From: a bacterium
Lineage (GTDB): Bacteria; Gemmatimonadota; Gemmatimonadetes; Gemmatimonadales; Gemmatimonadaceae
Direction: 5' to 3'
Assembly: GCA_021813725.1 (NCBI GenBank)
Contig: JAKAJN010000007.1
Location: forward strand, 1-49,904
DNA: 49,904 bases
This document shows positions 28,564-45,592 of this stretch, piece by piece (position 1 is the stretch's first letter; each line of letters begins with the position of its first letter). A program made the position numbers and the translations under genes. The notes under the pieces are model-generated. The model did no database searches. It saw nothing but the letters and a program-made list of their open reading frames with translations, and had not been told where the DNA came from.

Positions 28564-29787
28564 CTACTCGTATCGTAGCGCCACGATCGGGTCCATTGTT
28601 GCCGCGCGACGCGCCGGATAGACGCCAAAGATCACGCCGACACTCGCCGAGAAGCCGAAGGCGAGTGCGACGGCCGTGGAGCCGACCTCGGTGGTCCAGC
28701 CCATCACCTTGGTGAAGGCGGCGGCGCCGCCCGCTCCGACGAGAATGCCAATGGCGCCGCCAACGAGGCAGAGCACCACCGCCTCGACGAGGAACTGGAA
28801 CATGATGTTGAGCCGCGTCGCGCCAAGCGCCTTGCGAATGCCGATCTCGCGGGTGCGCTCGGTGACCGACACGAGCATGATGTTCATGATGCCGATGCCG
28901 CCCACGATGAGCGACACGGTCGCAATGCCGGCGAGGAGGAGCGAGAAGACCTGCGTCGTCTCGCCGAGCGTGTTCAGAAAGTCGGCCTGCGAGCGGATGT
29001 TAAAGTCGTCTTCCTTGCCGGCGCGCAGGCGGTGCTCGCGGCGCAGGATCTTCTGGATCTCGGCCATCGTCTCGGGAATATCGTCTTCCGAGGGCGAGAG
29101 CACACTCACCGACCGAATGCGGTTTTGGCCAAGGACGCGGTAGCGCGCGGTGGTGATGGGAATCAGGACCTGGTCATCGGGGTTGTTGAATGGCGATGCC
29201 TGCCCCTTCGACTTGTACACGCCGATCACCTGGAACTGGATGCCGCGAATGCGCACCGTCTCGCCCAGGATGGCGTCGGGTGTCTGGAGGCCGAGGTTCT
29301 CGAGGACGGTCGGGCCAACCACGGCAACGCGCTGGCGCGAATTGTCCTCCGCCGTCGTGAAGAACCGGCCCGCGGCGAGTTCGTACTTGCGAACTTCGGG
29401 GAAGTTCGACGAGACGCCGACAATCTGCGTGTTGGTGTTCTTGTTCAGGTACTGCACCTGCAGGTTGCCGGACATCTCGGGCTGCACCGCGAGGATCTTG
29501 GTGCTGCTGTCGGCGAGGGCCTTGGCGTCCTCGAGCGTCAGGCGCGCACTGCCGAAGCCGACGCGCACGCCACCCTGGCCGAACGCCTGCCCGGGGCTCA
29601 CGGTGAGAAGCGTGGTGCCGAGCGCGGCGATGCGGTCGTTGACGGCCCTCTGCGCGCCGCGGCCCAGCGCCACCACCGCGATGACGGCGGCGACGCCGAT
29701 GACGATACCGAGCATGGTGAGCAGGGAGCGCAGCTTGTTGGCGCGCAGCGCTCCGAGTGCGACCATGATGGTCTCACCAAACAGCAT
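28564..29787 (-). CDS. MacB-type ABC transporter permease (no ATPase domain)
   Basis: 407 residues. FGETIMVALGALRANKLRSLLTMLGIVIGVAAVIAVVALG is the first membrane segment of MacB/LolC/FtsX permeases. A periplasmic MacB-PCD domain (about 50-275) follows, then three more helices including GGIGIMNIMLVSVTERTREIGIRKALGATRLNIMFQFLVEA and the ending YPARRAATMDPIVALRYE. Classical MacB has an ATPase domain fused in front of the permease. Here it is absent and no separate ATPase gene is in the operon. It forms the inner-membrane part of a macrolide/peptide/lipid-type efflux system with the two genes upstream. It is the last gene of a six-gene operon. Confidence 0.9.
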   Translation of the reverse strand: MLFGETIMVALGALRANKLRSLLTMLGIVIGVAAVIAVVALGRGAQRAVNDRIAALGTTLLTVSPGQAFGQGGVRVGFGSARLTLEDAKALADSSTKILAVQPEMSGNLQVQYLNKNTNTQIVGVSSNFPEVRKYELAAGRFFTTAEDNSRQRVAVVGPTVLENLGLQTPDAILGETVRIRGIQFQVIGVYKSKGQASPFNNPDDQVLIPITTARYRVLGQNRIRSVSVLSPSEDDIPETMAEIQKILRREHRLRAGKEDDFNIRSQADFLNTLGETTQVFSLLLAGIATVSLIVGGIGIMNIMLVSVTERTREIGIRKALGATRLNIMFQFLVEAVVLCLVGGAIGILVGAGGAAAFTKVMGWTTEVGSTAVALAFGFSASVGVIFGVYPARRAATMDPIVALRYE

Positions 29788-29790
29788 GCG

Positions 29791-31575
29791 TCAGTTCCTT
29801 GGCCGGGCCGTCGAAGTGGCAGCTGGCGGCGGGCCACCGCCGCCCGGTCCACCGCCACGGCCGCCGCCGGCCGCCCCGCCGAGCGGACTGCCGCCGCCCA
29901 TCATCTGGCGCACGCGATTCTGCGCGGCCTCGCGCTGGGCCTGCATGGCTGCCGCCGAGAGCAGCGCGACGCGCTCGCCTTCCTTGAGGCCGTCGAGCAC
30001 TTCGGTATAGTCGAAGTTGGCGACGCCGAGGCGCACCATGCGCGGCTCCCATGTGGAGTCGGCCTTCTGGACAAAGACGAGGCCGGTGCGCGCACGCGCG
30101 CGCATGCCGGGGCCCTGCGGCACGTCCACACTGCGTCCGGCCTGGTCACCGCGTGCCGACTGGCGAGCGGCGGTGCCACGTGCGGACGCGCCCGCGGTCG
30201 CGCCGCTCGGCCGCGCGCCGCCCATTACATTCGTCGCGCCGCCGCCGAATCCACCGCCGTTGCCGCCGTCGCGGCGCCGGCAGGCGCCCGCGATGCGCGC
30301 GTCCACGCCGAGCTTTGCGTACAGCTCCTGCGTCTGTGTGAAGAGTGCGCGGCGATCCGCGTCGGGGTTGCGCATCTGCTCGCGCAGCGCGTCGAGCTGC
30401 TTGGCGACGGCGGGCTGCTTCTTGACCGCGTCGTCCACCTTCTTGCAATCGGCGTCGGTGACTTCAACCTGCTGGAAGCCACCGCCCTGTCGGCCACCCG
30501 GCTGCTGCAGCTCCACTTCACCGTTGCTCGTCTGCGTGCGCCCCCCCTGGCCCGGGCGTCCACCACGAGCGCCGCCGCTGCCGCCGCGCAACATTCCACC
30601 CATGCTCGAGCGCAACTGTGCGCTCACGCTGTCGGGGTCGAGGTTGAGCAGTGGGGCGATGTTCTGCACTTCGCGCATATTGCGCACGGCATCGTTGGGG
30701 ATGGCCAGCACGTCGGTGCGGCGATCCACGAGCACCGACGCTTCGCCGTTCATCCCGGGCTTGAGCATCCCGTCCTCGTTGGAGAGCGAAATCAGCACCG
30801 GGAACATCGTGACGTTCTGCTGCACGACCGCCTGCGGTTCAACCTTTTCCACCTTGCCGCGGAACGGATGGTCGGGGAAGGCATCCACCGTGACGGTGGC
30901 CTCCTGTCCGGCGGCGATCTGGCCGATGTCGGTCTCGTTGACGAGCGCCCGGGCGCGCACGCGGGTGAGGTCGGCCATCTTGAGGATGGTCGAGCCGCCG
31001 CCCATCGAGGTGGTGCCGGCCTGAATCACCTGGCCGAGCGAGACGGTCTTCTCGATCACCGTGCCCTCGACGGGCGCGCGCACCGTGGCATCCTCGAGGC
31101 GCTGCTGCGCGAGGTCGAGCGACGTGCGGGCGCGGACGAAGCTGGCCTGCGCGTTGGCGAAGTCGAGGTTCGCCGTCTCGTTCTCCTGGGCGGTGATGAT
31201 GCGCTGCTGGAACAAGTCGTCGGAGCGCTTCTTCTGTGCGGTCGACGTGTTCAGCTTGGCCTGGGCGGCCTCGAAGTCGGCCTGCGCCTGGTTGGCGGCG
31301 TTCGTCAGATCGCGCGTGTCAATCTGGACGATGAGGTCGCCGGGCTTCACGGACGAGCCGACCTCGACGGTCATCTTGGTGATCTGTCCCGACGCGGTCT
31401 TCGACTTGACCTCGACGATGTTGATGGGCTCGATGACGGCCGTGGCCGTGGCGTCCACAATGATGTCACGGCGCGTCACAGGCGCAGTCTGAATGGCGAC
31501 CGGCTTCTCGGTCTTCTTGCCGCATGCGGCGAGGGACGCCGCGGCGGCGAGGGCAAGGACGAATCGGCGGTTCAC
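29791..31575 (-). CDS. MacA/HlyD-type periplasmic adaptor lipoprotein with large insertion
   Basis: 594 residues from GTG 31575 (GGAG about 7 nt upstream). The lipoprotein signal ends in LAAC (Cys18). Biotinyl-lipoyl halves (ITKMTVEVGSSVKPGDLIVQID and VRAPVEGTVIEKTVSLGQVI) flank a helical hairpin (about 88-162). A beta-barrel domain follows (TDIGQIAAGQEATVTVDAFP). Typical MacA has about 370 residues. Here about 190 extra residues (about 305-495) enter before the membrane-proximal domain. They are Gly/Arg/Gln-rich tracts around a helical unit with two Cys (377 and 432). The protein also ends in a Gly/Pro tail. It bridges the MacB permease (3 nt downstream) and TolC (upstream). Confidence 0.88.
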   Translation of the reverse strand: MNRRFVLALAAAASLAACGKKTEKPVAIQTAPVTRRDIIVDATATAVIEPINIVEVKSKTASGQITKMTVEVGSSVKPGDLIVQIDTRDLTNAANQAQADFEAAQAKLNTSTAQKKRSDDLFQQRIITAQENETANLDFANAQASFVRARTSLDLAQQRLEDATVRAPVEGTVIEKTVSLGQVIQAGTTSMGGGSTILKMADLTRVRARALVNETDIGQIAAGQEATVTVDAFPDHPFRGKVEKVEPQAVVQQNVTMFPVLISLSNEDGMLKPGMNGEASVLVDRRTDVLAIPNDAVRNMREVQNIAPLLNLDPDSVSAQLRSSMGGMLRGGSGGARGGRPGQGGRTQTSNGEVELQQPGGRQGGGFQQVEVTDADCKKVDDAVKKQPAVAKQLDALREQMRNPDADRRALFTQTQELYAKLGVDARIAGACRRRDGGNGGGFGGGATNVMGGARPSGATAGASARGTAARQSARGDQAGRSVDVPQGPGMRARARTGLVFVQKADSTWEPRMVRLGVANFDYTEVLDGLKEGERVALLSAAAMQAQREAAQNRVRQMMGGGSPLGGAAGGGRGGGPGGGGPPPAATSTARPRN

Positions 31576-31610
31576 GAGATGCTCCGAAAGGGGCGTCGGT
31601 CGGTGTCGGG

Positions 31611-32915
31611 TCACTTGAGGTCGCGGCCGACGAGGGCCTCGACCTGCGCCTTGGCGATGCGGGCGTCGTAGCGCGCCTGAATGAGCGAGGCGCGGGCCTG
31701 ATCGAGTGTCGTCTGCGACGTCAGCAGGTCGAGCAGCACGGAGGCACCGAGCGCGTAGCGCTGCTGCTGCACGCGCAGGTCCTCCTCGGCGGCGGCGACG
31801 CTGGCGAGCTGGATGGCGACGCGTTCCTCCGCTGTGCGGAAGGCGCCGAGGAACTGCACGAGTGACTGTTGCTGGGCGAGCTTGGCGTCACGCAGGGCGG
31901 CCACCGCATTCTCCTCGGCCACCGTTGTGCGCGTGAGGTTCTCCTCACGGCTCAGGTTGTTGAAGAGCGGGAAGTTGAGCGAAAAGCGAAGGCTGTTCTG
32001 TTTCGGAATGCGGCCGCTTCCCCAGTCGAACGTCTCGGACGTATTGTTGCCGCTGAGACTGTACGACGACGAAATGGTGGGCATGTACGGCGTCTTGGCG
32101 GCTCGCTTGGCGGCCTGCGCGGCGACGAGCGCCGCGTCGGCCTGACGGACGGCCGGTCCGTCGAGCGCCAACGCAGTGAGCTGGGTGCTGTCGAGCACGA
32201 TGCGACCCATCTCGGCCGTGTCGGCTGGCGTGGCGGTGACGACATCGGCGGCGCCGATGAGGCGCGTCAGGGCCGCGTTTGCCACGCGCAGGTTGTTTTG
32301 CGCGGTGAGCTGGGCGAGGCGCGCGTTGCCCACCTGGATGGCGGAGCGCAGCGAATCGCTCTTGGTGGCGATGCCGGCGCGCACCTTGGCGGTGGACGAC
32401 TTGAGCTGTTCCTGCGCCTGCTCGAGCTGACGGTTGGCTGCCGCTTCGCTTTCGCGCGCGGCGAGCACGGCGAAGTACTGCTGCTTGACCTGCAGGGCAA
32501 TGCTGAAGCGCTGCGACGTTTCACCGGCGTCGGCGGCGTCCACATTCGCCTGTGCCGACTTCAGGTTGTACCAACGGCGGCCGCCGTCGAAGAGTTCGAG
32601 ACTGGTCGACAGCCCGCGCGAGAACGACCACGGCACGCCGCTGTACGGGACGAGCTTGCCTTGGAAGAACGTCTCACCGCCCTGGCGCGAGCCAGAGCCG
32701 GAGATCGAGAGCGAAGGGAGATACTGCGCGTAGGCGGTGCGCACCGCCGCGGCGCTGGTGCGCAGCGCATTGCGAGCCGACACGGCAGCCGGTGCGTTGC
32801 GCTGCGCCTCACGCACCGCGTCGTCGAGTGTGATGGCACGCGCCCCCGCGTCCGACGACTGCTGCGCCGCGACGGCGAGCGGCAGCGCAGCGCACAGCAT
32901 GGCAACCCGGTACAT
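31611..32915 (-). CDS. TolC-family outer-membrane efflux protein (first copy)
   Basis: 434 residues with a signal peptide ending near AAQQ. ITLDDAVREAQRNAPAAVSARNALRTSAAAVRTAYAQYLPSLSISG is the usual start of an OEP repeat. Two such helical/beta-strand repeats are present, the second around QADAALVAAQAAKRAAKTPYMPTISSSYSLSG. It forms the trimeric exit duct of the three-part pump with the MacA and MacB homologues downstream. It starts 3 nt after the Spy-like gene and ends 35 nt before macA, so it is in one operon with the ECF sigma factor upstream. Confidence 0.92.
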   Translation of the reverse strand: MYRVAMLCAALPLAVAAQQSSDAGARAITLDDAVREAQRNAPAAVSARNALRTSAAAVRTAYAQYLPSLSISGSGSRQGGETFFQGKLVPYSGVPWSFSRGLSTSLELFDGGRRWYNLKSAQANVDAADAGETSQRFSIALQVKQQYFAVLAARESEAAANRQLEQAQEQLKSSTAKVRAGIATKSDSLRSAIQVGNARLAQLTAQNNLRVANAALTRLIGAADVVTATPADTAEMGRIVLDSTQLTALALDGPAVRQADAALVAAQAAKRAAKTPYMPTISSSYSLSGNNTSETFDWGSGRIPKQNSLRFSLNFPLFNNLSREENLTRTTVAEENAVAALRDAKLAQQQSLVQFLGAFRTAEERVAIQLASVAAAEEDLRVQQQRYALGASVLLDLLTSQTTLDQARASLIQARYDARIAKAQVEALVGRDLK

Positions 32916-32918
32916 GTC

Positions 32919-33284
32919 CTATTTCTTCTCCTGGGCGCGGGCCTTCTGGTCCCGCTGCATCTGCTCATACACGCTGCGCTGTTCCGGCGTGAGGACGGCC
33001 GAAATCCGGGCGCGCGCGTCGCCGCGAATGGAGTCGAGCTGCGGCCGGATGGGTACGACGAGCAGCGACTCGGCGCGGAACCGAGCATCGAGAATGCTGT
33101 CCACCGCGGCCCGCTGTTCCGTCGTCAGCTTGAGGTCGCTGGCGAAGCGCGCGCGCATCTCCCGCACGGTCAGACGCGCTGCGGCGGGCGGGCGGAGCAG
33201 GCGGTCGGCGGCGATGCCGATGGCGAGGCCAGCCACAGCCGCGCCGAGATAGAACGCCAGGGCGAGTCCTTTGGTTCGCGTCAT
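32919..33284 (-). CDS. Spy/CpxP-like LTxxQ periplasmic protein (first copy)
   Basis: 121 residues from ATG 33284. A membrane anchor or uncleaved signal (about 7-26) precedes a helical periplasmic part with the paired motifs of the Spy/CpxP group: LKLTTEQRAAVDSIL (Gln at 57) and AVLTPEQRSVYEQM (Gln at 102). Family members are stress chaperones or metal/stress sensors that modulate signal transduction. Its place right after a sigma/anti-sigma pair suggests a sensing or feedback role for that circuit (inference). The C-terminus is basic (RDQKARAQEKK). TolC follows after 3 nt. Confidence 0.8.
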   Translation of the reverse strand: MTRTKGLALAFYLGAAVAGLAIGIAADRLLRPPAAARLTVREMRARFASDLKLTTEQRAAVDSILDARFRAESLLVVPIRPQLDSIRGDARARISAVLTPEQRSVYEQMQRDQKARAQEKK

Positions 33285-33313
33285 GTTGCCAGCCGGGGGC
33301 GGCGCCGCTTCGG

Positions 33314-33694
33314 CTACCGCCCGTTGATGTAATTGAGTGTTGCCTGCCGCTCGCTCTGCGCGTCGCGGATGGCGAGGGTGGGTCCGCCGTTCGACGGGCC
33401 GAGGATGGAGTCGTAGGCCATCTGCCGCTGCTCGGCGCGCGCGCGCAGGACGAGCGAACCCGCCACGATGAGGGCGAAGCCCGCGGCAATCAGGCCAATG
33501 CGCGCCCACTGCGTCGGCACCGACCACCAGGCGTCGAGTGACTCGCCGCCGGCGATCCGGTCCATGATGCGCTGTTCCAGCGCGCTCCAGTAACCGGGCG
33601 CATCGGGTGGCGCGTACAGTTGGCGCAGTGCGTGGGTCAGTTCGGCGTCGGCATCGTCGGGGACGAGGCGCAGCGGCGTGTGGTCGTGGGTCAT
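33314..33694 (-). CDS. Single-pass membrane protein, probable anti-sigma factor (first copy)
   Basis: 126 residues. A cytoplasmic N-terminal half (ELTHALRQLYAPPDAPGYWSALEQRIMDRI) is followed by one membrane helix (about 67-84) and a short periplasmic tail (QMAYDSILGPSNGG, QSERQATLNYINGR). The start codon overlaps the stop of the ECF sigma gene by 4 nt (ATGA), the usual sigma/anti-sigma arrangement. The zinc anti-sigma motif (HxxxCxxC) is absent. The role is therefore inferred from position and topology only. Confidence 0.7.
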   Translation of the reverse strand: MTHDHTPLRLVPDDADAELTHALRQLYAPPDAPGYWSALEQRIMDRIAGGESLDAWWSVPTQWARIGLIAAGFALIVAGSLVLRARAEQRQMAYDSILGPSNGGPTLAIRDAQSERQATLNYINGR

Positions 33695-34302
33695 TGCGGA
33701 CTCCGGAGCTGATCGAGCAGGCGCCGCAACGCCGACCGTGCGTAGTGCAGGTCGGAGCGCGCCGTCCCCTCGGGAATGCCAAGCAGTTTGCCGATTTCAG
33801 AGTGCTTGAATCCTTCGACGTCGTGCAGCACGATCACCGAGCGCTGGCGCTCGGGAAGCTGGGCGAGCGCCTCGTGCAGGCGCAGGCGCAGCTCGTCGCT
33901 CTCGGCTGGGTCGCGGAAGGGCGACGCGATCGTCTCGGGCAGGTCGTCGGCGTCGCGCACCTTGCGGCGGCGCGTGATGTCGAGCGACGCATTGGCGACG
34001 ATGCGGTGCAGCCAGGCACCGAACGCCTGGTCGGGGAGGAAGCGGTGCAGGGCGCGATAGGCGTGCAGGAACGCGTCCTGCACGGCGTCCTCCGCATCCT
34101 CGTGCGTGGTGACGATGGCGCGCGCCACGGCGTAGGCGCGCCGCTGATGGCGGCGCACCAGTTCCGAGAACGCCTCGAGCTCGCCGCGCTGGGCGGAGAG
34201 CACGAGCGCCTTCTCGTCGTCGGGGCGGTCAGGCGTCGTCACGCGGCGGCGCAGGCGGCCGGGGAGCGCGAGGGACACCGGACGCAGGGCAATGGTAGTC
34301 AT
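33691..34302 (-). CDS. ECF sigma factor (first copy)
   Basis: 203 residues. Region 2 is ALVLSAQRGELEAFSELVRRHQRRAYAVARAIV with the core-binding and -10 recognition part HEDAEDAVQDAFLHAYRAL. Region 4 is ALAQLPERQRSVIVLHDVEGFKHSEIGKLLGIPEGTARSDLHYARSALR, a helix-turn-helix for the -35 element. There is no region 3 or extension, so it is a standard RpoE-like ECF factor. It heads the operon sigma/anti-sigma/Spy/TolC/MacA/MacB. A match to an ECF-type promoter directly upstream suggests self-activation. Confidence 0.95.
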   Translation of the reverse strand: MTTIALRPVSLALPGRLRRRVTTPDRPDDEKALVLSAQRGELEAFSELVRRHQRRAYAVARAIVTTHEDAEDAVQDAFLHAYRALHRFLPDQAFGAWLHRIVANASLDITRRRKVRDADDLPETIASPFRDPAESDELRLRLHEALAQLPERQRSVIVLHDVEGFKHSEIGKLLGIPEGTARSDLHYARSALRRLLDQLRSPQ

Positions 34303-34330
34303 CGCGTCTCGTCACGAGGTGCACTCCATA

Positions 34331-34354
34331 GACGGACGGCAAAGGTGAAACGTT
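34331..34354 (-). promoter_or_regulatory. ECF-type promoter candidate upstream of the first sigma gene
   Basis: On the minus strand AAC (34352-34354), 17 nt, CGTC (34331-34334, followed by TA). AAC in the -35 and CGTC in the -10 are the common core of ECF promoters. The -10 is 28 nt from the start codon. Confidence 0.4.
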
Positions 34355-34373
34355 GAGGGCAATCGTCGCGCGG

Positions 34374-34949
34374 TCACGCCCCGGCCAGACCGAGCGCTTC
34401 GGCATTCCCCTTCAACGCCTCGACGACGAAGGCGATGTGCGCGTCGAGTTCCACGCCGAGCTCGGCCGCGCCATGGGTGATGTCTTCGCGCGAGACGCCG
34501 CGGGCGAACGCCTTGTCTTTCATCTTCTTTCGCACCGACGACGGTTCGAGGTCCAGGATGCTCTTGCTCGGTCGCACGTAGGTCGCGGCGGTGACGAGTC
34601 CGCAGAGTTCATCCACCGCGAACAGCGTCTTGGCCATCGGGGTCTCGCGCGGCGTGTGCGTGTACTCGGCGTGCCCGAGAATGGCGGTGCAGATCTCGTC
34701 GGAAACGCCGAGGGTGCGCAGGTGGCGCACGCCGTGCGACGGATGTTCCTCGGTGGCGGAGTGCGCGTCGTTGGGAAAGCGCTCGTAATCGAAGTCGTGG
34801 AGCAGACCGGCAAGCGCCCACGCCTCCTCATCCGCCCCGAACCGTCGGGCATAGGCGCGCATCGCCGTCTCGACGGCGAGCATGTGTTTGCGGAGCGATT
34901 CGCTCTGCGTCCATTCGCAAACAAGTGTCCAGGCGGCTTGGCGATCCAT
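34374..34949 (-). CDS. HD-domain hydrolase family protein
   Basis: 191 residues from ATG 34949. The upstream continuation of the frame is translated repeat DNA and was excluded. The pattern H...HD...H is visible: LRKHMLAVETAM, then LAGLLHDFDYERF with the HD pair, and EEHPSHGVRHLRTLG. HAEYTHTPRETPMAKTLFAVDELCGLVTA contains a further conserved Asp. Such proteins are metal-dependent phosphohydrolases acting on nucleotides or related compounds in the cytoplasm. The substrate is unknown. A 35-bp G-rich repeat lies 23 nt upstream of the start. Confidence 0.85.
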   Translation of the reverse strand: MDRQAAWTLVCEWTQSESLRKHMLAVETAMRAYARRFGADEEAWALAGLLHDFDYERFPNDAHSATEEHPSHGVRHLRTLGVSDEICTAILGHAEYTHTPRETPMAKTLFAVDELCGLVTAATYVRPSKSILDLEPSSVRKKMKDKAFARGVSREDITHGAAELGVELDAHIAFVVEALKGNAEALGLAGA

Positions 34950-35035: not shown

Positions 35036-38000
35036 TCAAGGGGGGCCTTCGGGCAGACGACCACCGGCACCGCCCGCCGGTCGCAGGGTGGGGTTCTTCA
35101 CCGACTCAGGGACCTCGGCCCACTGCTCTTCCGACAGCACCTTCTGAATGGACGTCGTGGCCTCTATGTAATTGTTGCGCGCCTCCTGGAACATCGGCTG
35201 CAGCTTGGGGAAGAGCGTCTGCAGGTCGCCGCCGCCCTTGGCCTCCTTTTGCATCTGCGCTTCCAGTCGCCTGGTGACCGCCCTCGTGCGCGCGTTGAGC
35301 GAATCGCCGATCGCCTTGAGTGCGGTGACCTGCGCCGGAGTCAACTTCAGTTGTGCGCGAAGGTCGAGCAGGGGACGGATCGGGTCGGGCGCGAGGCGGC
35401 GCGCAATGGTGCGCACGTCCATGCGCGGTCGGTTGCCTGCGCCCGCGTTGAGCATCCTCTCGAGCAGCTGGCGTTGACGGTCCACGCCCACCTGCAGGCG
35501 CGCCGTGAGGGCGATCTGGAACGGATTGCGGAGCGCGGAGCGCGAGAGCGCATTGCTGCCGAAGCGCTCGTTGACGACGTAGCGGAAGGCCTTCGCCGCG
35601 GGATCGAACCCCCGCACGTAGAGCAGGGTCTGATCGACGAAGGTGGGCTGGCCCCAGCCGCGCAGGTTGTCCGCGCCGTGCAGCAGTTGATCGAGCCCGG
35701 CGAGCGGATTCACGAGACCGACCTGCACCTGCAGGCGACGGCCAATGGTCGGGCCGAGTTGCGGCCGGAAGTTGAGCTGCATATCGAGCGACGTGTACCA
35801 GGCCGTGCGGCAGCTGTTACGGCCGGCGATGGTTCCGAGCTGCGATCGCAGGCAGTTGCGTGCCGCGCCAGGCGCCGTGGCGAGGAGGCGCTGCATGCCG
35901 TTGGCGAGCGCGCTGTCCACCGCCGCCGACGGGTCGAAGATGTACGCGCGATCGTTGCGCGAGCCGTCGCCGTTGATGTCGCCGCCGACCCGCGGCGTGT
36001 ACGGCTGGCCCGACTGCACGCGCATCACGCCGGTCACGTCGAGCCACGGCCGGGCGAGCCACGTGACGGATCCATTGAAGCCGTGCCGCCGTTCGAGGTC
36101 GCTCGTCGTCACGCGCAAAATGTTGGGATCGCCAGCCGTCGTCGGCGACGCGAATCCGCCCTGCGCACTGCCGCCGGAGAAGCTCGACTGGTCGGTGGAG
36201 CGTGTGAAAGTGTACGACAGGTGCCAGACAAGCTGGCGGAACGAGTTGCCGTTGAGCGACGTCGTGACTTGCGTGGTGTGCGACTTCAACGGCGATGCGA
36301 CGCGCAGCACAAACCCGTACTCAGGGTGCAGGCGTGACGCGGCAAGCGTCGTGATGCCAGTGCCCGGCACGATGGTGGAAGCCGGCACGTATACGGGGCG
36401 ATTGTCCTCGCGGGACAGGGAAAACTTGGGTGCCTCGGCGAGGTTGAGGTCGGTCACGCCATACAGACTCGTGCCGAGTGAATACGACGCGTCGATGCTG
36501 GCGTTGTAACGCTGGCGGAACCGCTTTGAGAGCCCGAGTGAACCGCGGATCGAGCGCGGCGTGGCAAAGTCGGGATCGAACGTGGTGACATTCGGACGCG
36601 TGCGGCTCAGCGGCACGCCCGGACCGGAGCCGTCGGCGCAGGTGGTCGGGATCGTGCTGTAGTCGTGCAGATACGAACTCCAGGCGGGGGTCGGCGCCGC
36701 GTTGCCGACACAGGTGAGCTGCGTCTCTCCCCCGGGAAGTCCAGTCGCGTCGATCGCCGACGAGAACAACTGCGTCGGCGCCCTACCGCGGAATTCGCCA
36801 ACGCCGCCTCGCACAATCCACGGCTGAGGTATCTGTGGAGTGGCGGCGTTTGGCATCGCCTGGGCGACGAAGCCACCGAGACCGCCCCTCCCACCACGCC
36901 CGCCATCACCGCCGCCCGCCGCGCCACGAGGAAAGCCGCCGCCGACAAATCCGCCGCCGGCCGTGCGCTGGCCGGCGCCGGGCGCTCCCTCCTGCGCCGG
37001 GCGATTCGCCCGACGTCCGGTGTCGGTGGGAAGGCCGAGCGTCAGCGTGAATCCAACACGCGGGCTCACACGCACGTCCGCTGGAATGCGATCGGTGCGC
37101 AACCCGAACTTGGCGTCGATGTCGGGATTGTACTGCGGCTGGCCATCCACGGTGCTTCCTTCGCCGCGCAGGCCGTAGGTCAGTTGGAACTTGCGATTCG
37201 GCCGCCAGATGTCGCCGAGGTAGACTGCCGCGACCACCGCGCCACCGGTGCGCTGGGCCGGCGCGAACGAGCGGCTGAACTGGCTCGGCCGGTTGGCGTC
37301 GAAATCGGCCAGCGACTGGAACTGAAAGTTCCCCGAGCGATTGGACCCGGCAGTGGTGCGGAATCCAGAGCGATTGACCAGTCCGCCGAGTTTCCAACGG
37401 TGGCGTCCGCCGCCGGACAGCCACGACAGTTCGTCGGTGAGTTCGAGCTGATTCGACGCATTGTCGTTGGGGAGTGCGCCATTGCCGCCGAAGTCGAGCC
37501 CGGAAATGGCCACCTGCCCGGTGGAGAGTTTGCTTCCCACCAGCACCCGTCCCTCCGGCAGGCGCAAGTACGGATTGGCCCCGCGCGTGTCGAGACTGTA
37601 CGAGCCCTTGAACTCGTTCAGGAACTGCCCCATCACCGACGAGAGCGACACGAGTCCGCCGACGCCACTCCCCTTCTGTTCCCCCGCGTGCGTGGGCACG
37701 CTCTGCGCCGAGCTGCGGAACCCGTCGAGCAAGGTGCCGGAGACGTTGGCGCGCAGCGACAGCGAGTGCGCCTCGCTGAGCTGCTGATCCAGCCGGACGA
37801 TGCCGGTGGCGTTGTCGTTGATGCGGTCATCGGGGACGAGTGCATTGCGCAACGGCAGGCCGTAACGCGTGAGGAGCGACAGGAACCGCGCGGCGGAGTC
37901 GGCCTGCACGTTGAGCGCTTCGAGCGTTTGCGTGCCCGCACCGAGCAGGGACTGCAGCGCGTCAAGCCGGCGGCGCAGCTGGAAGCTGGCAAACCAGAAG

Positions 38001-38949: not shown

Positions 38950-39462
38950 TCACGGACGCGGGCCGGGCGGACGCGGCCAGTCTCCGGCTCCCCGGTTCGG
39001 CGCACCGTCCGGATACCGCCGTTTCATCGCCGCCTCGCGCCGGGCGTGCGCGGAATCGAGCACCGCGCGCTGCGTCGGCGTGAGAATGCTGTCCATCGAG
39101 CGCCGCGTCTGCGCCATCAGCGAGTCGATGGCCGGCTGGGTGCTCTTCCGGATCTCGCGGAACCCCCGCATCTGCCGCTCGATCAGCGTGTCAATGCGCA
39201 CGGCTTGCTCCTCGCTGAGCTTGAGCTCGGCGGGGAGCATGGCACTCGGCCGTCGCGGTGCGGCACGCCGGTCGCCGCGCGGGGCATTGGCGCGTTCGGC
39301 CCACCGGTGCGGACGGAGCACGGTGCGCTCGAGCGCGATGCCGCCGAGGATGCCGGCGAGCGCCACGATGACGAGCACCCCCACGGCGAGGAGTCGAGTG
39401 GAACGCGCAGGTGGAGAGGACGGCGTCTCGCCGGCCGCGTCAAGTTGAGTCGGATCGGTCAT
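38950..39462 (-). CDS. Spy/CpxP-like LTxxQ membrane-anchored protein (second copy)
   Basis: 170 residues. A cytoplasmic tail of about 20 residues, one membrane helix (about 22-45) and an Arg/Pro-rich linker lead to a helical periplasmic part with ELKLSEEQAVRIDTL (82-86 core) and SILTPTQRAVLDSA (127-131 core), the paired motifs of the Spy group. The C-terminus is Pro/Arg-rich. It overlaps the preceding membrane protein gene by 4 nt, so it belongs to the second sigma operon. It mirrors the gene at 32919-33284 in order and type. The TonB-dependent receptor gene follows after 86 nt. Confidence 0.8.
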   Translation of the reverse strand: MTDPTQLDAAGETPSSPPARSTRLLAVGVLVIVALAGILGGIALERTVLRPHRWAERANAPRGDRRAAPRRPSAMLPAELKLSEEQAVRIDTLIERQMRGFREIRKSTQPAIDSLMAQTRRSMDSILTPTQRAVLDSAHARREAAMKRRYPDGAPNRGAGDWPRPPGPRP

Positions 39463-39848
39463 CGGTCTACCGCCATCGCGATGAGGAACTCGGTGGAATC
39501 AGGGCCGACCACGGCGTCGGTGACAGCGGAACGCGAACCACCGGTCACGGCGCCGCGCAGATCTGTTGCGGCGGCCTGCACGGCGAGTTCGGCCTCGCTG
39601 CGCACCGACCGGTTGAGAATCACCGCGGCGATCAGCGCCGCCGCGATGCCGATGGGAACGGCAGCGCGGCCATAGCGGGCGACCCAGCCGTACCACGGAG
39701 TGTCGACGCGCCGCAGTCCGCGGCGCCGCGCGGCCACGCCGATGCGCTCGCGGAGCCGCGCCTCGCGCAACAACGCGCCGAGCATCGGATCGCGCTCCGG
39801 GTCATTGGCCAGGCGCGCGTCGGTCGGCGTGAGGATGTCGTCGGTCAT
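39459..39848 (-). CDS. Single-pass membrane protein, probable anti-sigma factor (second copy)
   Basis: 129 residues from ATG 39848 with GAGGGG 5 nt upstream. The cytoplasmic half (LGALLREARLRERIGVAARRRGLRRVDTPWYGWVARYG) is basic. One membrane helix (about 62-80) and a short periplasmic tail follow. The start overlaps the sigma gene stop by 4 nt and its own stop overlaps the Spy-like gene by 4 nt, so all three are translationally coupled. There is no zinc anti-sigma motif. The role is inferred from position and topology. Confidence 0.68.
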   Translation of the reverse strand: MTDDILTPTDARLANDPERDPMLGALLREARLRERIGVAARRRGLRRVDTPWYGWVARYGRAAVPIGIAAALIAAVILNRSVRSEAELAVQAAATDLRGAVTGGSRSAVTDAVVGPDSTEFLIAMAVDR

Positions 39849-40423
39849 GAGTTCCCCTCTTCCATCAGCGGTGCCAGCGCTGTCCGCAGGCTCTTCTTGG
39901 CCTGGTGCAGGTGCCACCGCACGTTCTCGGGCGTGAGACCCAGGTGTTTCGCGATCTCCGCGCCCTTCCACCCTTCGACTTCGAAGAGCATCACAATTTC
40001 CCGCTGCCGCGGCGTCAGCGCCGCGAGTGCCGCGTCGAACCGCTCCCGCACTTCCGTTCGTATCATCGCTTCGTCCGGCAGCGCATCCGGCGAGGCCGCA
40101 TCGAGCGGTTCGGGCTCGGTGTGGCGCACGCGGCGGGCGCGCAGCTGGTTGATGCCCAGATTGCGCAGCAGCGTGAAAAACCACGGCCCGAACGGTCGGC
40201 CCGGATCGAGCAGCGGCAGGCGGTCGAGCGCGCGCAGGAACGCATCCTGCACGAGATCCTCCGCATCGCTGCGGTCTCCCAACAACCGTTCGGCGGCGAC
40301 GAGAGCGCCCGGGAGATGGCGACGGACGAGCGCATCGAACGCCGCTGGGTCGCCGCGCCGTGCGCGGACGACCAACGCCGATTCATCTGCGTCGGACGCC
40401 GGCTCGCGGGTGGGCTCTCGCAT
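39845..40423 (-). CDS. ECF sigma factor (second copy)
   Basis: 192 residues from ATG 40423, chosen because TGAGG, which overlaps the stop codon of the upstream gene, sits at ideal distance; TTG 40435 is an alternative. Region 2: ALVVRARRGDPAAFDALVRRHLPGALVAAERLLG, with SDAEDLVQDAFLRALDRLP. Region 4: LAALTPRQREIVMLFEVEGWKGAEIAKHLGLTPENVRWHLHQAKKSLR. It differs enough from the copy at 33691-34302 that they are not a recent duplication. Confidence 0.95.
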   Translation of the reverse strand: MREPTREPASDADESALVVRARRGDPAAFDALVRRHLPGALVAAERLLGDRSDAEDLVQDAFLRALDRLPLLDPGRPFGPWFFTLLRNLGINQLRARRVRHTEPEPLDAASPDALPDEAMIRTEVRERFDAALAALTPRQREIVMLFEVEGWKGAEIAKHLGLTPENVRWHLHQAKKSLRTALAPLMEEGNS

Positions 40424-40431
40424 CCAATTCC

Positions 40432-40782
40432 TCAAACACCCGGCCCGGGGCGGCCGTTAGCCGCGCCCGGCAGCATCCGGCCGAAGCGCTCGGCGTCTTC
40501 CTTCCACAGCGTCTCGGCCTTCGGCGGCTGGTCGGGACTGAGGCGCTTGAGCGTCTCCTCACGCGACCACGCGTCGTTCTCGCGGATCGCGCGCAGCAGC
40601 GCCGCCATGTGCGGTCGTGCGGTCGCCATCACCGCCCGGTCCGCCCGGGATCCGCCGCTCATGCCGCCGGCGCCGCGGCCGCCCATATCGCCGGCACGTT
40701 CGCCGCCAACATTGACGCCGCGTTGGGCGCCGGCGAGCGCGGGAAGCGCAGCCAGCGAGAGCAGAAGCAGGGAAGGACGCAT
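40432..40782 (-). CDS. Small secreted protein of unknown function heading the second ECF operon
   Basis: 116 residues from ATG 40782. The signal peptide MRPSLLLLSLAALPALAGAQ is followed by a Gly/Met/Arg-rich stretch (VGGERAGDMGGRGAGGMSGGSRADRAV) and a helical part (MAALLRAIRENDAWSREETLKRLSPDQPPKAETLWKEDAERFGRML). Family not recognised. It ends where the Shine-Dalgarno of the ECF sigma gene begins, so the two are coupled. This suggests the protein could be an extracytoplasmic input or target of the circuit (inference). LSPDQ is a weak echo of the LTxxQ motif in its neighbours. Confidence 0.7.
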   Translation of the reverse strand: MRPSLLLLSLAALPALAGAQRGVNVGGERAGDMGGRGAGGMSGGSRADRAVMATARPHMAALLRAIRENDAWSREETLKRLSPDQPPKAETLWKEDAERFGRMLPGAANGRPGPGV

Positions 40783-40820
40783 ACGCACGGGGCCTCTCCG
40801 TTGAAGCCGCGCCAGGGTGA

Positions 40821-40849
40821 CAAACCTACAATGCCGATCGCCCATCCAA
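40821..40849 (-). promoter_or_regulatory. FCB-type promoter candidate of the second ECF operon
   Basis: On the minus strand TTGG (40846-40849), 17 nt, TAGGTTTG (40821-40828). The latter fits the TAnnTTTG -7 element known from Bacteroidetes. It is about 40 nt from the first start codon. One instance only, so weak. Confidence 0.3.
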
Positions 40850-40875
40850 CGCGCGAGGGGGGGACCAGCGCTGGC

Positions 40876-42441
40876 CTAGTGTCCGCTGTCACGCAGCACC
40901 ATGCCGCGCGGCCGTCCATTGTGCCAGAACAACATCAACGGCGTCGCGCTCAACAGCACCAGGCCGCTGATCCAATAGATGCGGGAGAAGGACAGCACGC
41001 TCGCCTGCACCCCGACCGTGCGGTCCAGAATGGCGAGCGCCTGCTGATGCGCCACGGTGGCCGAGGCACCCTTGGCCACCATGGCGTGCGTCAGCGCCTC
41101 CACTCGCCCCTGCACGGCCGGTGACGTCGAGACCAGATGATCCACGAGCAGCGCCTTCTTTCCCTTGGTCACGTGATTGAGCTGCGTGGCGAGCACGGCG
41201 ATGCCGATGCTGCCACCGAGTTGGCGCGTGAGATTGAAGAGCCCTGTCCCCGAGGCGAGATCACGCGGCGCCAGCTCCGCCAGGGCGATGGCATTCAGCG
41301 GGATGAACATCATGCCGAGCGCCACCCCGCGAGTGACGAGCGGCCAGAACAGGTCGCCCTTGCCACTGTCGTACGTCAGGCCAGCGAGCTGCCACATGCA
41401 CAGCATGAAGAGCGCCGAGCCGAGCAGAATGATGGGGCGGCCATCGTTCATCTGGCGCATGCGGCGTCCCATCGTCGCCATCACCGCCGCCGACGCGAGT
41501 GCGCCGGGCAGGATCACCATGCCCGTCTGGTTGGCCGTGAAGCCGTGCAGCGATTGCAGGAAGACCGGGAGCACGAAGACCGATCCGAAGAGCGCGAAGC
41601 CGAGCACGCCCCCCATGATGACTCCGGTCGCGAGCTGACGATTCTTGAGCAGATGAAAGTCGATGACCGGCTCGTCGGTGTGCAGTTCATGCCAGACCAG
41701 CCAGATAAAGGAGCCGACAGAGACAAGCGCCAACGTGGTGACGAAACGCGACTCGAACCAGTCGTACCGCTCGCCGCGCTCGAGCATCCACTGGAGCGAG
41801 CCAACGGCCGCCGTCAGCAGGCCAATGCCGAGCCAGTCCACCTTCTCGGCGCGCTCCTGATGCTCCGAGTCGGTGACGTATGTCGAGACGAGCGCGGCCG
41901 CGATGAGCCCGAGCGGGAGGTTGATGTAGAAGATCCAGGGCCAGTTCCAGTTGTCCACGATGAAGCCGCCCAGCGTCGGGCCCAGGGTGGGGCCAACCAT
42001 CACGCCGACGCCAAAGATTGCCTGGCCGATGGCGACCTCGTGCGGCGGGAAGGCCTCCCACAGCGTGGACTGCGCCGTCGAGAGCAGCGCGCCGCCGCCA
42101 ACGCCCTGCACGACGCGCCAGAAGACGAGCTCCCACAGCGAGGTGGACGCGCCGCAGAAGAACGACGCGGCGACAAAAAGCAGGATGGACGTCGTGAGAT
42201 AGCGGCGGCGGCCGTAGTAGGCCGAGAGCCAGCTCGACATCGGAATCACGATGACGTTGGCGATGATGTAGCCAACGCTCACCCAGGAGATCTCGTCGAG
42301 CGTCGCGCCCAGGTTCCCCATCATGTGCGGGATCGCGACGTTCACGATGGACGTGTCGATGAGCTCCAGCACCGCCGCCATCGTGACGGCGGCGGCGATG
42401 AGGTACTTGTGGCGGTACTTGTCGGGCGGGGAGGCAGACAC
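40876..42441 (-). CDS. EmrB/DHA2-family MFS drug efflux transporter
   Basis: 521 residues from GTG 42441 with about fourteen membrane segments. SIVNVAIPHMMGNLGATLDEISWVSVGYIIANVIVIPMSSWLS is the DHA2 start. The motif C-like GVGVMVGPTLGPTLGGFIVDNWNWPWIFYINLPLG is diagnostic of drug/proton antiporters. It exports hydrophobic compounds using the proton gradient, with the EmrA-like adaptor and TolC of the same operon forming a duct through both membranes. It is the last gene of tetR-tolC-emrA-emrB. A GACGGGA heptamer array lies 8 nt upstream of the start, and no clear ribosome site is seen, so the array may affect its translation. Confidence 0.93.
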   Translation of the reverse strand: MSASPPDKYRHKYLIAAAVTMAAVLELIDTSIVNVAIPHMMGNLGATLDEISWVSVGYIIANVIVIPMSSWLSAYYGRRRYLTTSILLFVAASFFCGASTSLWELVFWRVVQGVGGGALLSTAQSTLWEAFPPHEVAIGQAIFGVGVMVGPTLGPTLGGFIVDNWNWPWIFYINLPLGLIAAALVSTYVTDSEHQERAEKVDWLGIGLLTAAVGSLQWMLERGERYDWFESRFVTTLALVSVGSFIWLVWHELHTDEPVIDFHLLKNRQLATGVIMGGVLGFALFGSVFVLPVFLQSLHGFTANQTGMVILPGALASAAVMATMGRRMRQMNDGRPIILLGSALFMLCMWQLAGLTYDSGKGDLFWPLVTRGVALGMMFIPLNAIALAELAPRDLASGTGLFNLTRQLGGSIGIAVLATQLNHVTKGKKALLVDHLVSTSPAVQGRVEALTHAMVAKGASATVAHQQALAILDRTVGVQASVLSFSRIYWISGLVLLSATPLMLFWHNGRPRGMVLRDSGH

Positions 42442-42448
42442 GGATACA

Positions 42449-42484
42449 GACGGGAGACGGGAGACGGAAGACGGAAGACGGAAG
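42449..42484 (+). repeat. GACGGGA/GACGGAA heptamer array between emrA and emrB
   Basis: Five consecutive 7-nt units (two GACGGGA, then three GACGGAA). They share the unit with the inverted arms at 19239-19344. The array fills most of the 61-nt gap between the two genes. Confidence 0.85.
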
Positions 42485-42502
42485 AGCGGGGACGGGGGGG
42501 CG

Positions 42503-43537
42503 CTACTTCACGGACACGTGCGCGACGACGCTCATTCCGGGACGGAGCGGGCGCTCGGCGCCGCAGTCGCGCGTGACCGCGATCCGCACCGGAATGCGTT
42601 GCACCACCTTCGTGAAGTTGCCGGTGGCGTTGTCGGGTGGGAGCAGCGCGAACCGTGCGCCGGTGGCCGCACTCAGACTCTCCACTTTCCCCGCGGCGTC
42701 GCAGTCCGGATACGAGTCAATCTCGAGCTCCACCGACTGGCCGACGTGCATGTCGGAGAGTTGAGTCTCCTTGAAGTTCGCCGTCACCCAGGTGTGCGTG
42801 GCATCCACCACGGTCAGCAACGGCTGACCCGCCGCCACCAGCTGACCGACCTCGACCTGCTTCTTCGACACCACTCCCGTGAGCGGTGAGTGCACGATGG
42901 TGTAGGCGAGCTGCAACCGCGCATTCTCGAGCGATGCGCGCGCGCCGGCGAGCCGCGCGTTGGCCAGTCGCGAGCCCGCCTGCGCGCCGGCGAACTGCGC
43001 ATCGGCCGCGCGGGCCTGCCGCTCGACCGCCTGCAGGCTGGCGGCGGCCTGTTCGTATGCGGTCTGCGCCGCGTCGAGCTGCTGCCGGCTGACGATCTGC
43101 TTGCCCGCCAGCTCCTTGGCGCGGGCGAGATCGGCCGTCGCCTTGGCCAGCTGCGCGCGTGCCGCGTCAATCTGCGCGCCGACCACCTGCCGCTGGCTCT
43201 CGGCGCCACGCAACTGCGCGTCGGCCTGGCCGCCGACGCCTCGCGCTCCGGCCACGGAAGCCGCCGCCTCGAGGTCAGCGTTGGCCTGCGCCAGGCGCAT
43301 GGCGTACTCGGCGGTGTCGAGGCGCACCAGCACGTCGCCATCCTTGACGGGTTGATTCTCCGCCACGTCCAGCTTGGAGACATATCCGCCCACCTTGGCG
43401 AGCACCGGCACGATGGAGCCATCCACCTGCGCGTTATCGGTGCTCTCGTGCGCGAAGTTGTACAGACTGGTCTTGCCCACCCAGTACAGGGCGCCGACGG
43501 CGGCGAGGGCAACGATGGGAATGAGGGGCTTCTTCAT
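42503..43537 (-). CDS. EmrA/HlyD-family membrane fusion protein
   Basis: 344 residues. An N-terminal membrane anchor (about 7-25) leads to STDNAQVDGSIVPVLAKVGGYVSKLDVAENQPVKDGDVLVRLDTAEY, the lipoyl-like half with the EmrA-type T-D-N-A-Q-V motif. An Ala-rich helical hairpin follows (about 75-205), then the second half LAYTIVHSPLTGVVSKKQVEVGQLVAAGQPLLTVVD and the beta-barrel (TWVTANFKETQLSDMHVGQSVELEIDSYP). It links the EmrB-like transporter (downstream) with TolC (upstream). The order tolC-emrA-emrB is normal for such operons. Confidence 0.93.
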   Translation of the reverse strand: MKKPLIPIVALAAVGALYWVGKTSLYNFAHESTDNAQVDGSIVPVLAKVGGYVSKLDVAENQPVKDGDVLVRLDTAEYAMRLAQANADLEAAASVAGARGVGGQADAQLRGAESQRQVVGAQIDAARAQLAKATADLARAKELAGKQIVSRQQLDAAQTAYEQAAASLQAVERQARAADAQFAGAQAGSRLANARLAGARASLENARLQLAYTIVHSPLTGVVSKKQVEVGQLVAAGQPLLTVVDATHTWVTANFKETQLSDMHVGQSVELEIDSYPDCDAAGKVESLSAATGARFALLPPDNATGNFTKVVQRIPVRIAVTRDCGAERPLRPGMSVVAHVSVK

Positions 43538-43563
43538 ACGATGGTGGATTGGGATCGAGGAGT

Positions 43564-43595
43564 GCGATGGGGCGATGGCGAAGGGCGATGGCGAG
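43564..43595 (+). repeat. Short GCGATGG tandem repeat between tolC and emrA
   Basis: GCGATGG occurs at 43564, 43572 and 43585, with GCGA/GAAG spacers. It occupies half of the 64-nt gap between the two genes. Confidence 0.6.
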
Positions 43596-43601
43596 GAACG
43601 A

Positions 43602-44939
43602 TCACGGCAGTTCCGTCACGGTTCCCTCGGCGCGGGCGAGCGTCACACGTGCGGCTTGGAGTGCCGCGCGCGCATCGATCTCCTGTGTGCGGGCCGAGTT
43701 GAGGGCGAGCGACGCAGTGATGACGTCCGCGTTGCCGCTGACGCCCGCGGTGAAGCGCGCGCGCGCCTGTTCCAGTTCCTGCTGCGCGAGCGAGAGCCGT
43801 TCGGTCGCCGCGTCCAGCATTTCGCGCGCCGAGCGCAGGTCGAGCAACGCCGAGCGGATCTCGATGCCTGTCTGCGCTTCGAGATCGTGGTGCCGCGCCT
43901 CGGTCTCGCGCACCTGCGCGCGCTGCTCCTCGAGGCGTCCCTCGCGCCGGAAGCCGTCGAAGAGCGGGATCGCGACCTGCACGCCCCAGGCGTACGTGTT
44001 GAGCAGATGCGCCGACGACGGACCGATGACGCCCTGGTCGCCGAAGACGCCGAGCGTCGGGAGGCGTTCGAGTTTGGTGGCTGCGACGCTGCGTTCCGCG
44101 GCGCGGCGCTGTTCCTCGATGGACCGAAGGTCGGCACGATGCGCGAGCGCAACGCGCGTCGCCTCGTCTACCGACGGAGCGGTGGCGTCCACGGGGAGCG
44201 ACATCAGCGAATCGGCCAGCACGAGCGGCGCGGCGGGGTCGAGGCCGATGATGCGATGCAGGTCGAGCCGGGTGCGATCGCAATCCGCCCGAGCCGCGAT
44301 GAGCTGCGCGTGGGCCTGCGACAGCTGGCTGCGCGCGCGGGTGACGTCGAGCGCGACCCCCACACCGGCCTGCACCTGTTCGCCGGCGATGGTCAGCAGT
44401 TCGGCGGCGAGCGTGGAGTCGGCGAGGCGCGCGCCCATCGCGGCGTCGGCACGCACCGCGCGCACGTACGCGGCCGCGGCGAGCGTGGCCGCCTGGTCGC
44501 CCGCGCCTGCCGCCTCGGCCTCCGCCACGCGGGACTGCTGACGCACCGCCCCCAGCTTGGCGCCCACGGAAAGATCGAGCAGGTTCGCCTGCACGCGGCC
44601 ACGGAAATCCATCACCTTCACCGGCGGCAGAATCTGCCCGTTCGGGTTGAAGAGCGGCGTGCCCGTCGGACCACGGAACGAGAATCCGAACGTGGCCGTG
44701 TTCTGGTTGCGTTCGCTTTCGCCCGCCGTGGCGGAGAGCGTGGGGAAGAGCAGCGACCGCGCCTGACGCACGCGCGCGTCGGCCTGCTCCACACGCGTGC
44801 GGGCGATGATGCTCGCGCCGCTCTGCGCGGCGGCAAGGCGCGCCGCCCCACCCAGGGTGAGGGTGACGGGAGACTGCGCGGCGAGCGCGCCGGGGAGCAG
44901 GAGCGGGAGTGCGCGAAGCAGGGGGCGGATCCGAGTCAT
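43602..44939 (-). CDS. TolC-family outer-membrane efflux protein (second copy)
   Basis: 445 residues with a signal peptide (LLRALPLLLPGALAAQS). The OEP repeats are visible: VTLTLGGAARLAAAQSGASIIARTRVEQADARVRQARSLLFPTLSATAGES, and in the second half HRADLRSIEEQRRAAERSVAATKLERLPTLGVFGDQG. It forms the exit duct for the EmrA-EmrB pump. The start overlaps the TetR stop by 4 nt, so the regulator and pump are in one operon. It shares only family resemblance with the copy at 31611-32915. Confidence 0.93.
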   Translation of the reverse strand: MTRIRPLLRALPLLLPGALAAQSPVTLTLGGAARLAAAQSGASIIARTRVEQADARVRQARSLLFPTLSATAGESERNQNTATFGFSFRGPTGTPLFNPNGQILPPVKVMDFRGRVQANLLDLSVGAKLGAVRQQSRVAEAEAAGAGDQAATLAAAAYVRAVRADAAMGARLADSTLAAELLTIAGEQVQAGVGVALDVTRARSQLSQAHAQLIAARADCDRTRLDLHRIIGLDPAAPLVLADSLMSLPVDATAPSVDEATRVALAHRADLRSIEEQRRAAERSVAATKLERLPTLGVFGDQGVIGPSSAHLLNTYAWGVQVAIPLFDGFRREGRLEEQRAQVRETEARHHDLEAQTGIEIRSALLDLRSAREMLDAATERLSLAQQELEQARARFTAGVSGNADVITASLALNSARTQEIDARAALQAARVTLARAEGTVTELP

Positions 44940-45592
44940 TGTGCGGGGCTGTGGAATGCGGGATTGCGAAGTGCGGCGAGCGCAAAGTCGACGATGGCGT
45001 CGATGAGCTGTTGGCGGTCGCGCGACTGGTATTCGGGGCGGATCGAGTTGGCGCTGACCCAGTGCCGGTGCATGATCACCAGCGAGTTGGCGAACCCCAC
45101 GGCGAGGCGCGGCTCGACGCGGCGGAACTCGCCGGAAGCAACGCCGCGCGCGATGATGGCCTCGAGCTTGGCCCAGCCGCGGTCTATGACGGCGCGATTG
45201 TAGAACGCGAGGAGTTCCGGGTGCTTGGGGAGCTCGGCGATGAGGATGCGGAACCAGCCATCAAACCGCGGGAGCGTGATGAACGCCCAGTTGGCCCGCA
45301 TCGCCCGCTCAAGCGCCTCGCTCTCCGACTTGGGCGTCGGTCCTTGATGGGCCTCGCGCAGTTGGGCGGCGATGACGTCGTTCACCACTGCCTTGAAGAG
45401 CTCTTCCTTGCTGTCGAAGTAGAGGTAGATGGTCCCCTTGGACACCCCGGCGCGGCGCGCGATCTCGTCGAGCTTGGCGGCGTTGAACCCGCGCTCGGAA
45501 AAGACATCGAGTGCCGCCTCGATGAGCTGATGCGGGCGTTCGCCGGGGAGCCGGCGCCACTTCGGATCGTGTGCGATCGGTTCGGCGGACAC
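44936..45592 (-). CDS. TetR/AcrR-family repressor of the EmrAB-TolC operon
   Basis: 218 residues from GTG 45592, preferred over TTG 45613 because GGGAG lies 7 nt upstream. The helix-turn-helix is canonical: HQLIEAALDVFSERGFNAAKLDEIARRAGVSKGTIYLYFDSKEELFKAVV. The C-terminal ligand domain (about 70-218) is helical and ends in a short tail encoded by G-rich repeat-like DNA. It probably represses its own operon by binding the perfect palindrome at 45663-45680 and is released by pump substrates. It may also control the divergent S15 hydrolase gene. Confidence 0.93.
   Translation of the reverse strand: MSAEPIAHDPKWRRLPGERPHQLIEAALDVFSERGFNAAKLDEIARRAGVSKGTIYLYFDSKEELFKAVVNDVIAAQLREAHQGPTPKSESEALERAMRANWAFITLPRFDGWFRILIAELPKHPELLAFYNRAVIDRGWAKLEAIIARGVASGEFRRVEPRLAVGFANSLVIMHRHWVSANSIRPEYQSRDRQQLIDAIVDFALAALRNPAFHSPAQ

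Follow-up and report, generated by a model that had tools for sequence, protein, structure and literature searches.

The stretch of DNA analysed here, referred to as the window, comprises positions 1–49,904 (forward strand) of contig JAKAJN010000007.1, GenBank assembly GCA_021813725.1. It belongs to a 3.0-Mb draft genome of 237 contigs (G000) from a member of the Gemmatimonadota, a bacterium of soil and water. Two gene triplets (sets A and B) are found in it, each encoding an extracytoplasmic function (ECF) sigma factor, a membrane protein with one transmembrane helix (TM) and a membrane-anchored protein of the Spy/LTxxQ type. We propose, with a confidence slightly above even, that the three products of each triplet form a transmembrane sigma switch resembling CnrYXH but without its metal ligands, in which an exporter of the ATP-binding cassette (ABC) type replaces the resistance–nodulation–division (RND) pump. 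In CnrYXH the anchored periplasmic sensor CnrX acts on the one-helix anti-sigma factor CnrY and frees the ECF sigma factor CnrH (PMC7689651, PMC4803752, PMC4598750, PMC7406223). A sequence-only reading of the window had described both sets with this gene order on one strand, and the open reading frames (ORFs) and protein families agree with it and with its coordinates. The features of set A are as follows.

33691..34302, minus strand: sig1, ECF sigma factor (sigma1); Pfam Sigma70_r2 and Sigma70_r4_2; in the Spy-linked triplet sigma clade
33314..33694, minus strand: anti1, one-helix membrane protein, putative anti-sigma factor; one TM, no Pfam family
32919..33284, minus strand: spy1, membrane-anchored Spy/LTxxQ-like protein; TM 7–25, no His or Cys, profile found in 228/249 phylum genomes
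31611..32915, minus strand: TolC-type outer membrane protein; Pfam OEP, 3 nucleotides (nt) past spy1
29791..31614, minus strand: MacA-like periplasmic adaptor with a Gly-rich, Cys-containing insert; HlyD_D23 and RND_mfp, insert also in relatives
28564..29787, minus strand: MacB-like permease (MacB_PCD and FtsX by Pfam), no ATPase domain
34330..34355, minus strand: candidate sigma1 promoter CAACG-N16-CGTC (CAACGTTTCACCTTTGCCGTCCGTCT); spacing conserved in 40/41 loci

Those of set B are:

39845..40423, minus strand: sig2, ECF sigma factor (sigma2), from Pfam and the sigma tree
39459..39848, minus strand: anti2, one-helix membrane protein, putative anti-sigma factor
38950..39462, minus strand: spy2, membrane-anchored Spy/LTxxQ-like protein, spy1 paralogue by profile match
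35036..38863, minus strand: TonB-dependent receptor; CarboxypepD_reg and OMP_b-brl_4
35117..35365, minus strand: C-terminal LTXXQ (Spy-like) domain of the receptor, residues 1167–1249; Pfam score 24.4 against a cut-off of 24.3 bits
40436..40460, minus strand: candidate set B promoter (CTAACGGCCGCCCCGGGCCGGGTGT), directly ahead of sig2; conserved in 9/9 genus copies

The genes are tightly packed. A 4-nt overlap between the sigma gene and that of its membrane partner, already seen in the sequence-only reading, is confirmed in both sets (34302–33691 with 33694–33314, and 40423–39845 with 39848–39459). In set A this overlap is an ATGA, and it is followed by gaps of 29 nt between anti1 and spy1, whose likely start is the ATG at 33284, and of 3 nt between spy1 and TolC, by a junction of −4 nt between TolC and MacA, and by 3 nt between MacA and the permease. 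With no gap wider than 29 nt and the remaining junctions overlapping, a single transcript 34302–28564 is the simplest reading; set A is joined to the exporter operon, with no room for a terminator. The sigma/anti junction is exactly −4 in 31 of 41 family loci. The set B triplet contains two 4-nt overlaps, and the receptor gene follows after 86 nt (0 to about 80 nt in sister genomes).

The triplet is found widely. Among 99 relatives, anti1 is present as a single copy in 62, covering nearly the whole family; its nearest named relatives, in a single-protein scan that gave only six close ones, are Gemmatimonadetes metagenome-assembled genomes, two of them from groundwater. The order HD–sigma1–anti1–spy1–TolC–MacA–permease, where HD is an HD-domain protein, is syntenic in most genera read. 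A profile of the anchored Spy-like protein spy1 matches 228 of 249 Gemmatimonadota genomes. Around its matches 40 further loci were read, 38 of them outside the family; every one of the 40 has, upstream of the gene for the Spy-like protein, an ECF sigma gene in the same orientation. As about 10 ECF genes were found in the 3-Mb genome, such a linkage is far beyond chance. The triplet, which the sequence-only reading had proposed to seek in relatives, is thus widespread rather than absent. TolC/MacA/MacB genes stand alongside in about 30 of these 40 loci, divergently arranged in one, a fraction that may be biased upward since the loci are the better-scoring profile matches.

A tree of the sigma factors places those of the anchored-Spy loci in one clade (support 100/97), with a single outlier (L156). 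Within it, sigma1 and sigma2 fall in separate deep branches (98/80 and 99/91); judged from this tree they are ancient paralogues within one clade, and a recent duplication of the two circuits is ruled out by their positions. The remaining ECF sigma factors of the genome fall outside the clade. They include that of a third triplet on contig C54 (L001:1285–3141), in which the ECF sigma factor is accompanied by a zf-HC2 zinc-finger anti-sigma factor and a secreted LTXXQ protein.

The assignment of spy1 and spy2 to the LTxxQ type depends on the family rather than on single sequences. Individually they score 22.2 and 22.4 bits, just below the Pfam LTXXQ (PF07813) cut-off of 24.3 bits, which corrects the sequence-only reading on this point. 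In the spy1 alignment, however, LTXXQ is matched at E<=0.1 by 30 of the 36 sequences, and a PDB search with the family profile retrieves E. coli Spy (E=3.3e-4) as well as, weakly, CpxP. Metal_resist is matched by 16 of the 36 at the same threshold. The spy1 family profile finds spy2 at E=2.8e-14 as its sole other match in the genome, and spy1 has no match among plasmid records. The Spy-like proteins have an N-terminal anchor, no obvious signal-peptidase site as judged by eye, and two LTxxQ helices. The anchor contains a GxxxG step of small residues, with G19 invariant and G23 nearly so. Neither His nor Cys is present in spy1 itself, and no conserved column of either is found in the family alignment, some orthologues containing Cys or His.

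The predicted layout of anti1 is a cytoplasmic N-terminus, a TM at about residues 65–83 and a short periplasmic tail, and one TM is predicted in 40 of 41 orthologues. Their alignment shows three invariant residues, Pro30, Trp36 and Ala70, and a conserved cytoplasmic block, D..L...LR..YAAP....YW..L..RIMARI. Neither anti1 nor anti2 contains a Cys, and no Pfam or otherwise recognised anti-sigma family is matched by anti1, its orthologues or anti2. Thus a zinc anti-sigma factor (HxxxCxxC, or the RseA-type class I) is ruled out, and the sequence-only reading was right that the zinc motif is absent. Between anti1 and anti2 no direct profile match is found. The AlphaFold model of anti1 shows two short helices ahead of the TM helix at low confidence (pLDDT 58); as a model, it is compatible with a CnrY-like two-helix anti-sigma factor but does not demonstrate one. 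From their position, gene overlap and topology, anti1 and anti2 are putative anti-sigma factors.

Each triplet is preceded by a candidate promoter of its own. CAACn-N16-CGT[ATC] is found ahead of sigma1 in 40 of 41 loci, other spacings in 0–3 of 41. Among the 11 genomes of the genus, the strict form CAACGTT-N14-CGTCT occurs in 10 and precedes sigma1 in each, being found once per genome in nine and twice in one, where the second site lies elsewhere; the reversed pattern used as a control has no matches in these genomes. The genome without the strict site (G007) is the one without anti1. The set B element, CTAACR..CGCSCC.....GSGTGT, differs from that of sigma1, and in the genus it is found only ahead of sigma2-like genes. 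As both patterns were derived from their own sites, what carries information is how rarely they occur elsewhere; for this reason each sigma factor, its regulon being judged by promoter-pattern searches only, probably serves mainly its own operon. To be noted, a second sigma2-like gene start with the promoter element is present at a contig end in another genome (L273, G003 contig C107), either as a copy or as contamination.

From the observed gene order, overlaps, conservation, promoter element, paralogy and predicted topology we infer the binding of the sigma factor by the one-helix protein, sensing by the Spy-like part, the exporter as output and the nature of the signal, for which the sequence-only reading had offered envelope stress. 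The one-helix protein would hold its ECF sigma factor at the inner membrane. The Spy-like helical domain, tethered to the inner membrane and facing the periplasm, would bind misfolded protein or an amphipathic toxic compound and, across the membrane, would loosen or tighten the anti-sigma factor in the way that CnrX acts on CnrY. Once free, sigma1 would read the CAAC-N16-CGT promoter ahead of its own gene, and sigma1, anti1 and spy1 would be raised together with the TolC–MacA–permease exporter as a single transcript. Set B, an ancient paralogue with its own promoter, would have the Spy-tailed TonB-dependent receptor as its likely output in the genus.

The Spy-like part could be the sensor of the switch or one of its products. 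In E. coli, Spy and CpxP belong to stress regulons, in which they act as chaperones or in feedback. The Spy-like protein could likewise be an output chaperone made with the exporter, giving at most a CpxP-type feedback, and stress would be sensed by anti1 and anti2, for example by proteolysis. That Spy and CpxP are the nearest PDB matches and that the Spy-like gene shares a transcript with the outputs would fit this alternative, which we hold to be possible yet rather unlikely: the Spy gene keeps its place directly downstream of the anti-sigma gene, also at loci that lack the exporter, its product is membrane-tethered with a conserved GxxxG step, and the part of anti1 outside the membrane comprises only about 40 residues, leaving little room for a sensor. 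Because of the constant gene position and the membrane tether, both read from sequence, the sensor role is favoured. A true metal sensor of the CnrYXH type, whose Spy-like domain binds Ni, Co, Zn or Cu and whose exporter removes the metal, would agree with the parts and topology of CnrYXH, with the Metal_resist matches and with the Cys or His of some orthologues. It is very improbable, however, given that spy1 and the columns of its family alignment offer no His or Cys, that significant similarity to CnrX is lacking and that the transporter is of the ABC rather than the RND type; without ligands in spy1 it is ruled out as the principal explanation.

Several observations weigh against the sensor switch proposed here. 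The low confidence of the anti1 model means that no anti-sigma fold class can be assigned. No sequence similarity is found between anti1 and CnrY or between spy1 and CnrX (hhalign probability 0.1 and 3.6). The uniqueness of the promoters was judged with a strict pattern derived from the same sites. At some loci, in several genera, the triplet is kept without TolC–MacA–MacB, which makes the exporter a frequent rather than an obligatory output; the conservation of neighbours raised in the sequence-only reading thus applies to the majority of loci but not to these genera. Its further statement that set A runs on into TolC–MacA–MacB is borne out by the gene run and the tight junctions, but the MacB-like permease has no ATPase domain of its own. 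Neither the window nor the 38 family loci scanned contain an ORF with Walker A and signature motifs. In other families, many loci have an ATPase gene (GPSGSGKST, LSGGQR) placed between those for TolC and MacA, and the nearest one in this genome belongs to a TolC–MacA–ATPase operon with three MacB-like permease genes in a row (L275, contig C60). As there is no ATPase in the permease or its neighbourhood, the pump would borrow one or work otherwise. The MacA-like adaptor has a Gly-rich insert of about 200 residues that includes a conserved helical segment and a pair of Cys separated by about 60 residues; many family members share this insert.

The sequence-only reading correctly placed the TonB-dependent receptor (38863–35036) after set B and a TetR–TolC–EmrA–EmrB operon (45613–40876) upstream of it, but missed the receptor's own C-terminal Spy-like domain. 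The structure model of this tail is a helical hairpin (pLDDT 73). A fold search of the PDB with it gave no match at E<=0.001; ZraP, CnrX and NccX recur among the weak matches. A profile of the tail has matches in 94 of the 249 phylum genomes, and these fall mostly within open frames long enough for a receptor. In all 40 loci fetched (L224–L263) a receptor ORF ends with the domain; some of these ORFs carry two or more copies of it, in tandem at L226, L251 and L261. A sigma gene of the present kind is nearby at only about 3 of the 40, which mostly argues against the tail as a regular partner of the triplet. Receptors that end in a Spy-like domain represent a widespread architecture of their own; the literature library searched yielded no description of it. 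Spy-family proteins form dimers, and set B could be a cell-surface signalling system in which the tail signals to spy2 and anti2 in the manner of FecA but from the opposite end. The receptor gene follows spy2 by 0–86 nt in the genus copies and both proteins are of the LTXXQ type, as this would require, but a tail that is useful without a triplet at most loci makes it improbable. Equally doubtful is a broader idea, that Spy-like domains are a shared periplasmic signalling language in Gemmatimonadota, serving as the sensor of the phylum-wide sigma switch and in set B taking their signal from the receptor tail, a new cell-surface signalling opposite FecA's end.

Three further features adjoin the triplets.

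40432..40788, minus strand: 'sec', secreted protein of the LTXXQ type, shortened; L034 has a full-length LTXXQ relative
40876..45613, minus strand: TetR–TolC–EmrA–EmrB operon upstream of set B, a separate conserved neighbour by Pfam and synteny
34374..34949, minus strand: HD-domain protein, conserved sig1 neighbour by Pfam HD and synteny

The unknown secreted protein said to head set B is thus a shortened LTXXQ-type protein, and not a constant part: 'sec' is missing, replaced or broken in other genus copies. Its end overlaps the sigma2 promoter element. We reject a promoter upstream of 'sec' as the head of set B, since the conserved element falls within the final stretch of 'sec', a gene that is itself not constant. 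Set B is restricted to the genus (9 of 11 genomes) and sits between EmrB and HD, which adjoin directly in other genera lacking it. From these gene orders, set B is a genus-level insertion beside the separately conserved TetR–EmrAB operon. A single dedicated island, as once suggested, does not describe the region: set A is family-wide, TetR–EmrAB stands beside it without set B in many genera, and set B lies between them only in the genus. The HD gene adjoins sigma1 in at least two families. On the other side of set A (26962–28502) is a gene for a protein with a TonB C-terminal domain, convergent with the permease gene; a PadR regulator lies further out, and both recur in several relatives.

A comparison with known systems shows where the triplets stand. 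The Spy/CpxP/ZraP proteins (LTXXQ, PF07813) share the two LTxxQ helices, and E. coli Spy is found by the family profile; they are soluble and two-component-controlled, whereas the proteins here are anchored in the membrane and their genes lie in ECF sigma operons. With MacAB–TolC the exporter shares TolC, the MacA-type adaptor, the MacB-type periplasmic core and the FtsX permease, but the fused ATPase of MacB has here no counterpart in the permease or in a neighbouring gene. Set B resembles FecIRA cell-surface signalling in combining an ECF sigma factor, a putative membrane anti-sigma factor and a TonB-dependent receptor; it differs in the Spy-like domain at the receptor's C-terminus, and neither an STN domain on the receptor nor a FecR domain on the anti-sigma factor is among the Pfam matches at E<=1. 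An uncharacterised operon of Azospirillum brasilense, from another phylum, encodes RpoE8, a hypothetical protein and a 'periplasmic heavy metal sensor' (PMC12826043). This three-gene pattern is alike by description, and the part of that article consulted notes no pump (PMC12826043). On ECF sigma factors with Spy/LTXXQ proteins in Gemmatimonadota, searches of the literature returned nothing specific.

CnrYXH–CnrCBA of Cupriavidus metallidurans pMOL28 likewise has an ECF sigma factor, a small zinc-free anti-sigma factor with one TM (putative here), an N-terminally anchored periplasmic helical protein, short overlaps and adjoining TolC-type, adaptor and pump genes. CnrH transcribes cnrYXH and the efflux genes cnrCBA, driving its own operon and the pump (PMC7689651, PMC4803752); here a conserved, nearly unique element precedes sig1. 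The gene order is anti–sensor–sigma in CnrYXH and sigma–anti–Spy here; CnrX has metal ligands (His, Met123), which spy1 and its family columns lack in His and Cys alike; and CnrCBA is an RND pump, where here a MacB-type permease is found and no RND gene is adjacent. Thus the triplet, by its architecture, would work like CnrYXH but is not a member, because there is no sequence relation, there are no metal ligands, and the gene order and pump type are others. With this precedent (PMC7689651, PMC4803752) the novelty claimed earlier for a coupling of sigma factor, Spy-like protein and pump was overstated. The phylum-wide switch varies a known arrangement rather than being a new one. If our proposal is true, CnrYXH would be no mere oddity of metal resistance but an instance of a wider scheme, with a tethered Spy-type protein informing an ECF sigma factor of the state of the periplasm. 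In Gemmatimonadota this scheme would be nearly universal and often tied to an exporter, and it would offer a testable candidate route of envelope sensing for this little-studied phylum.

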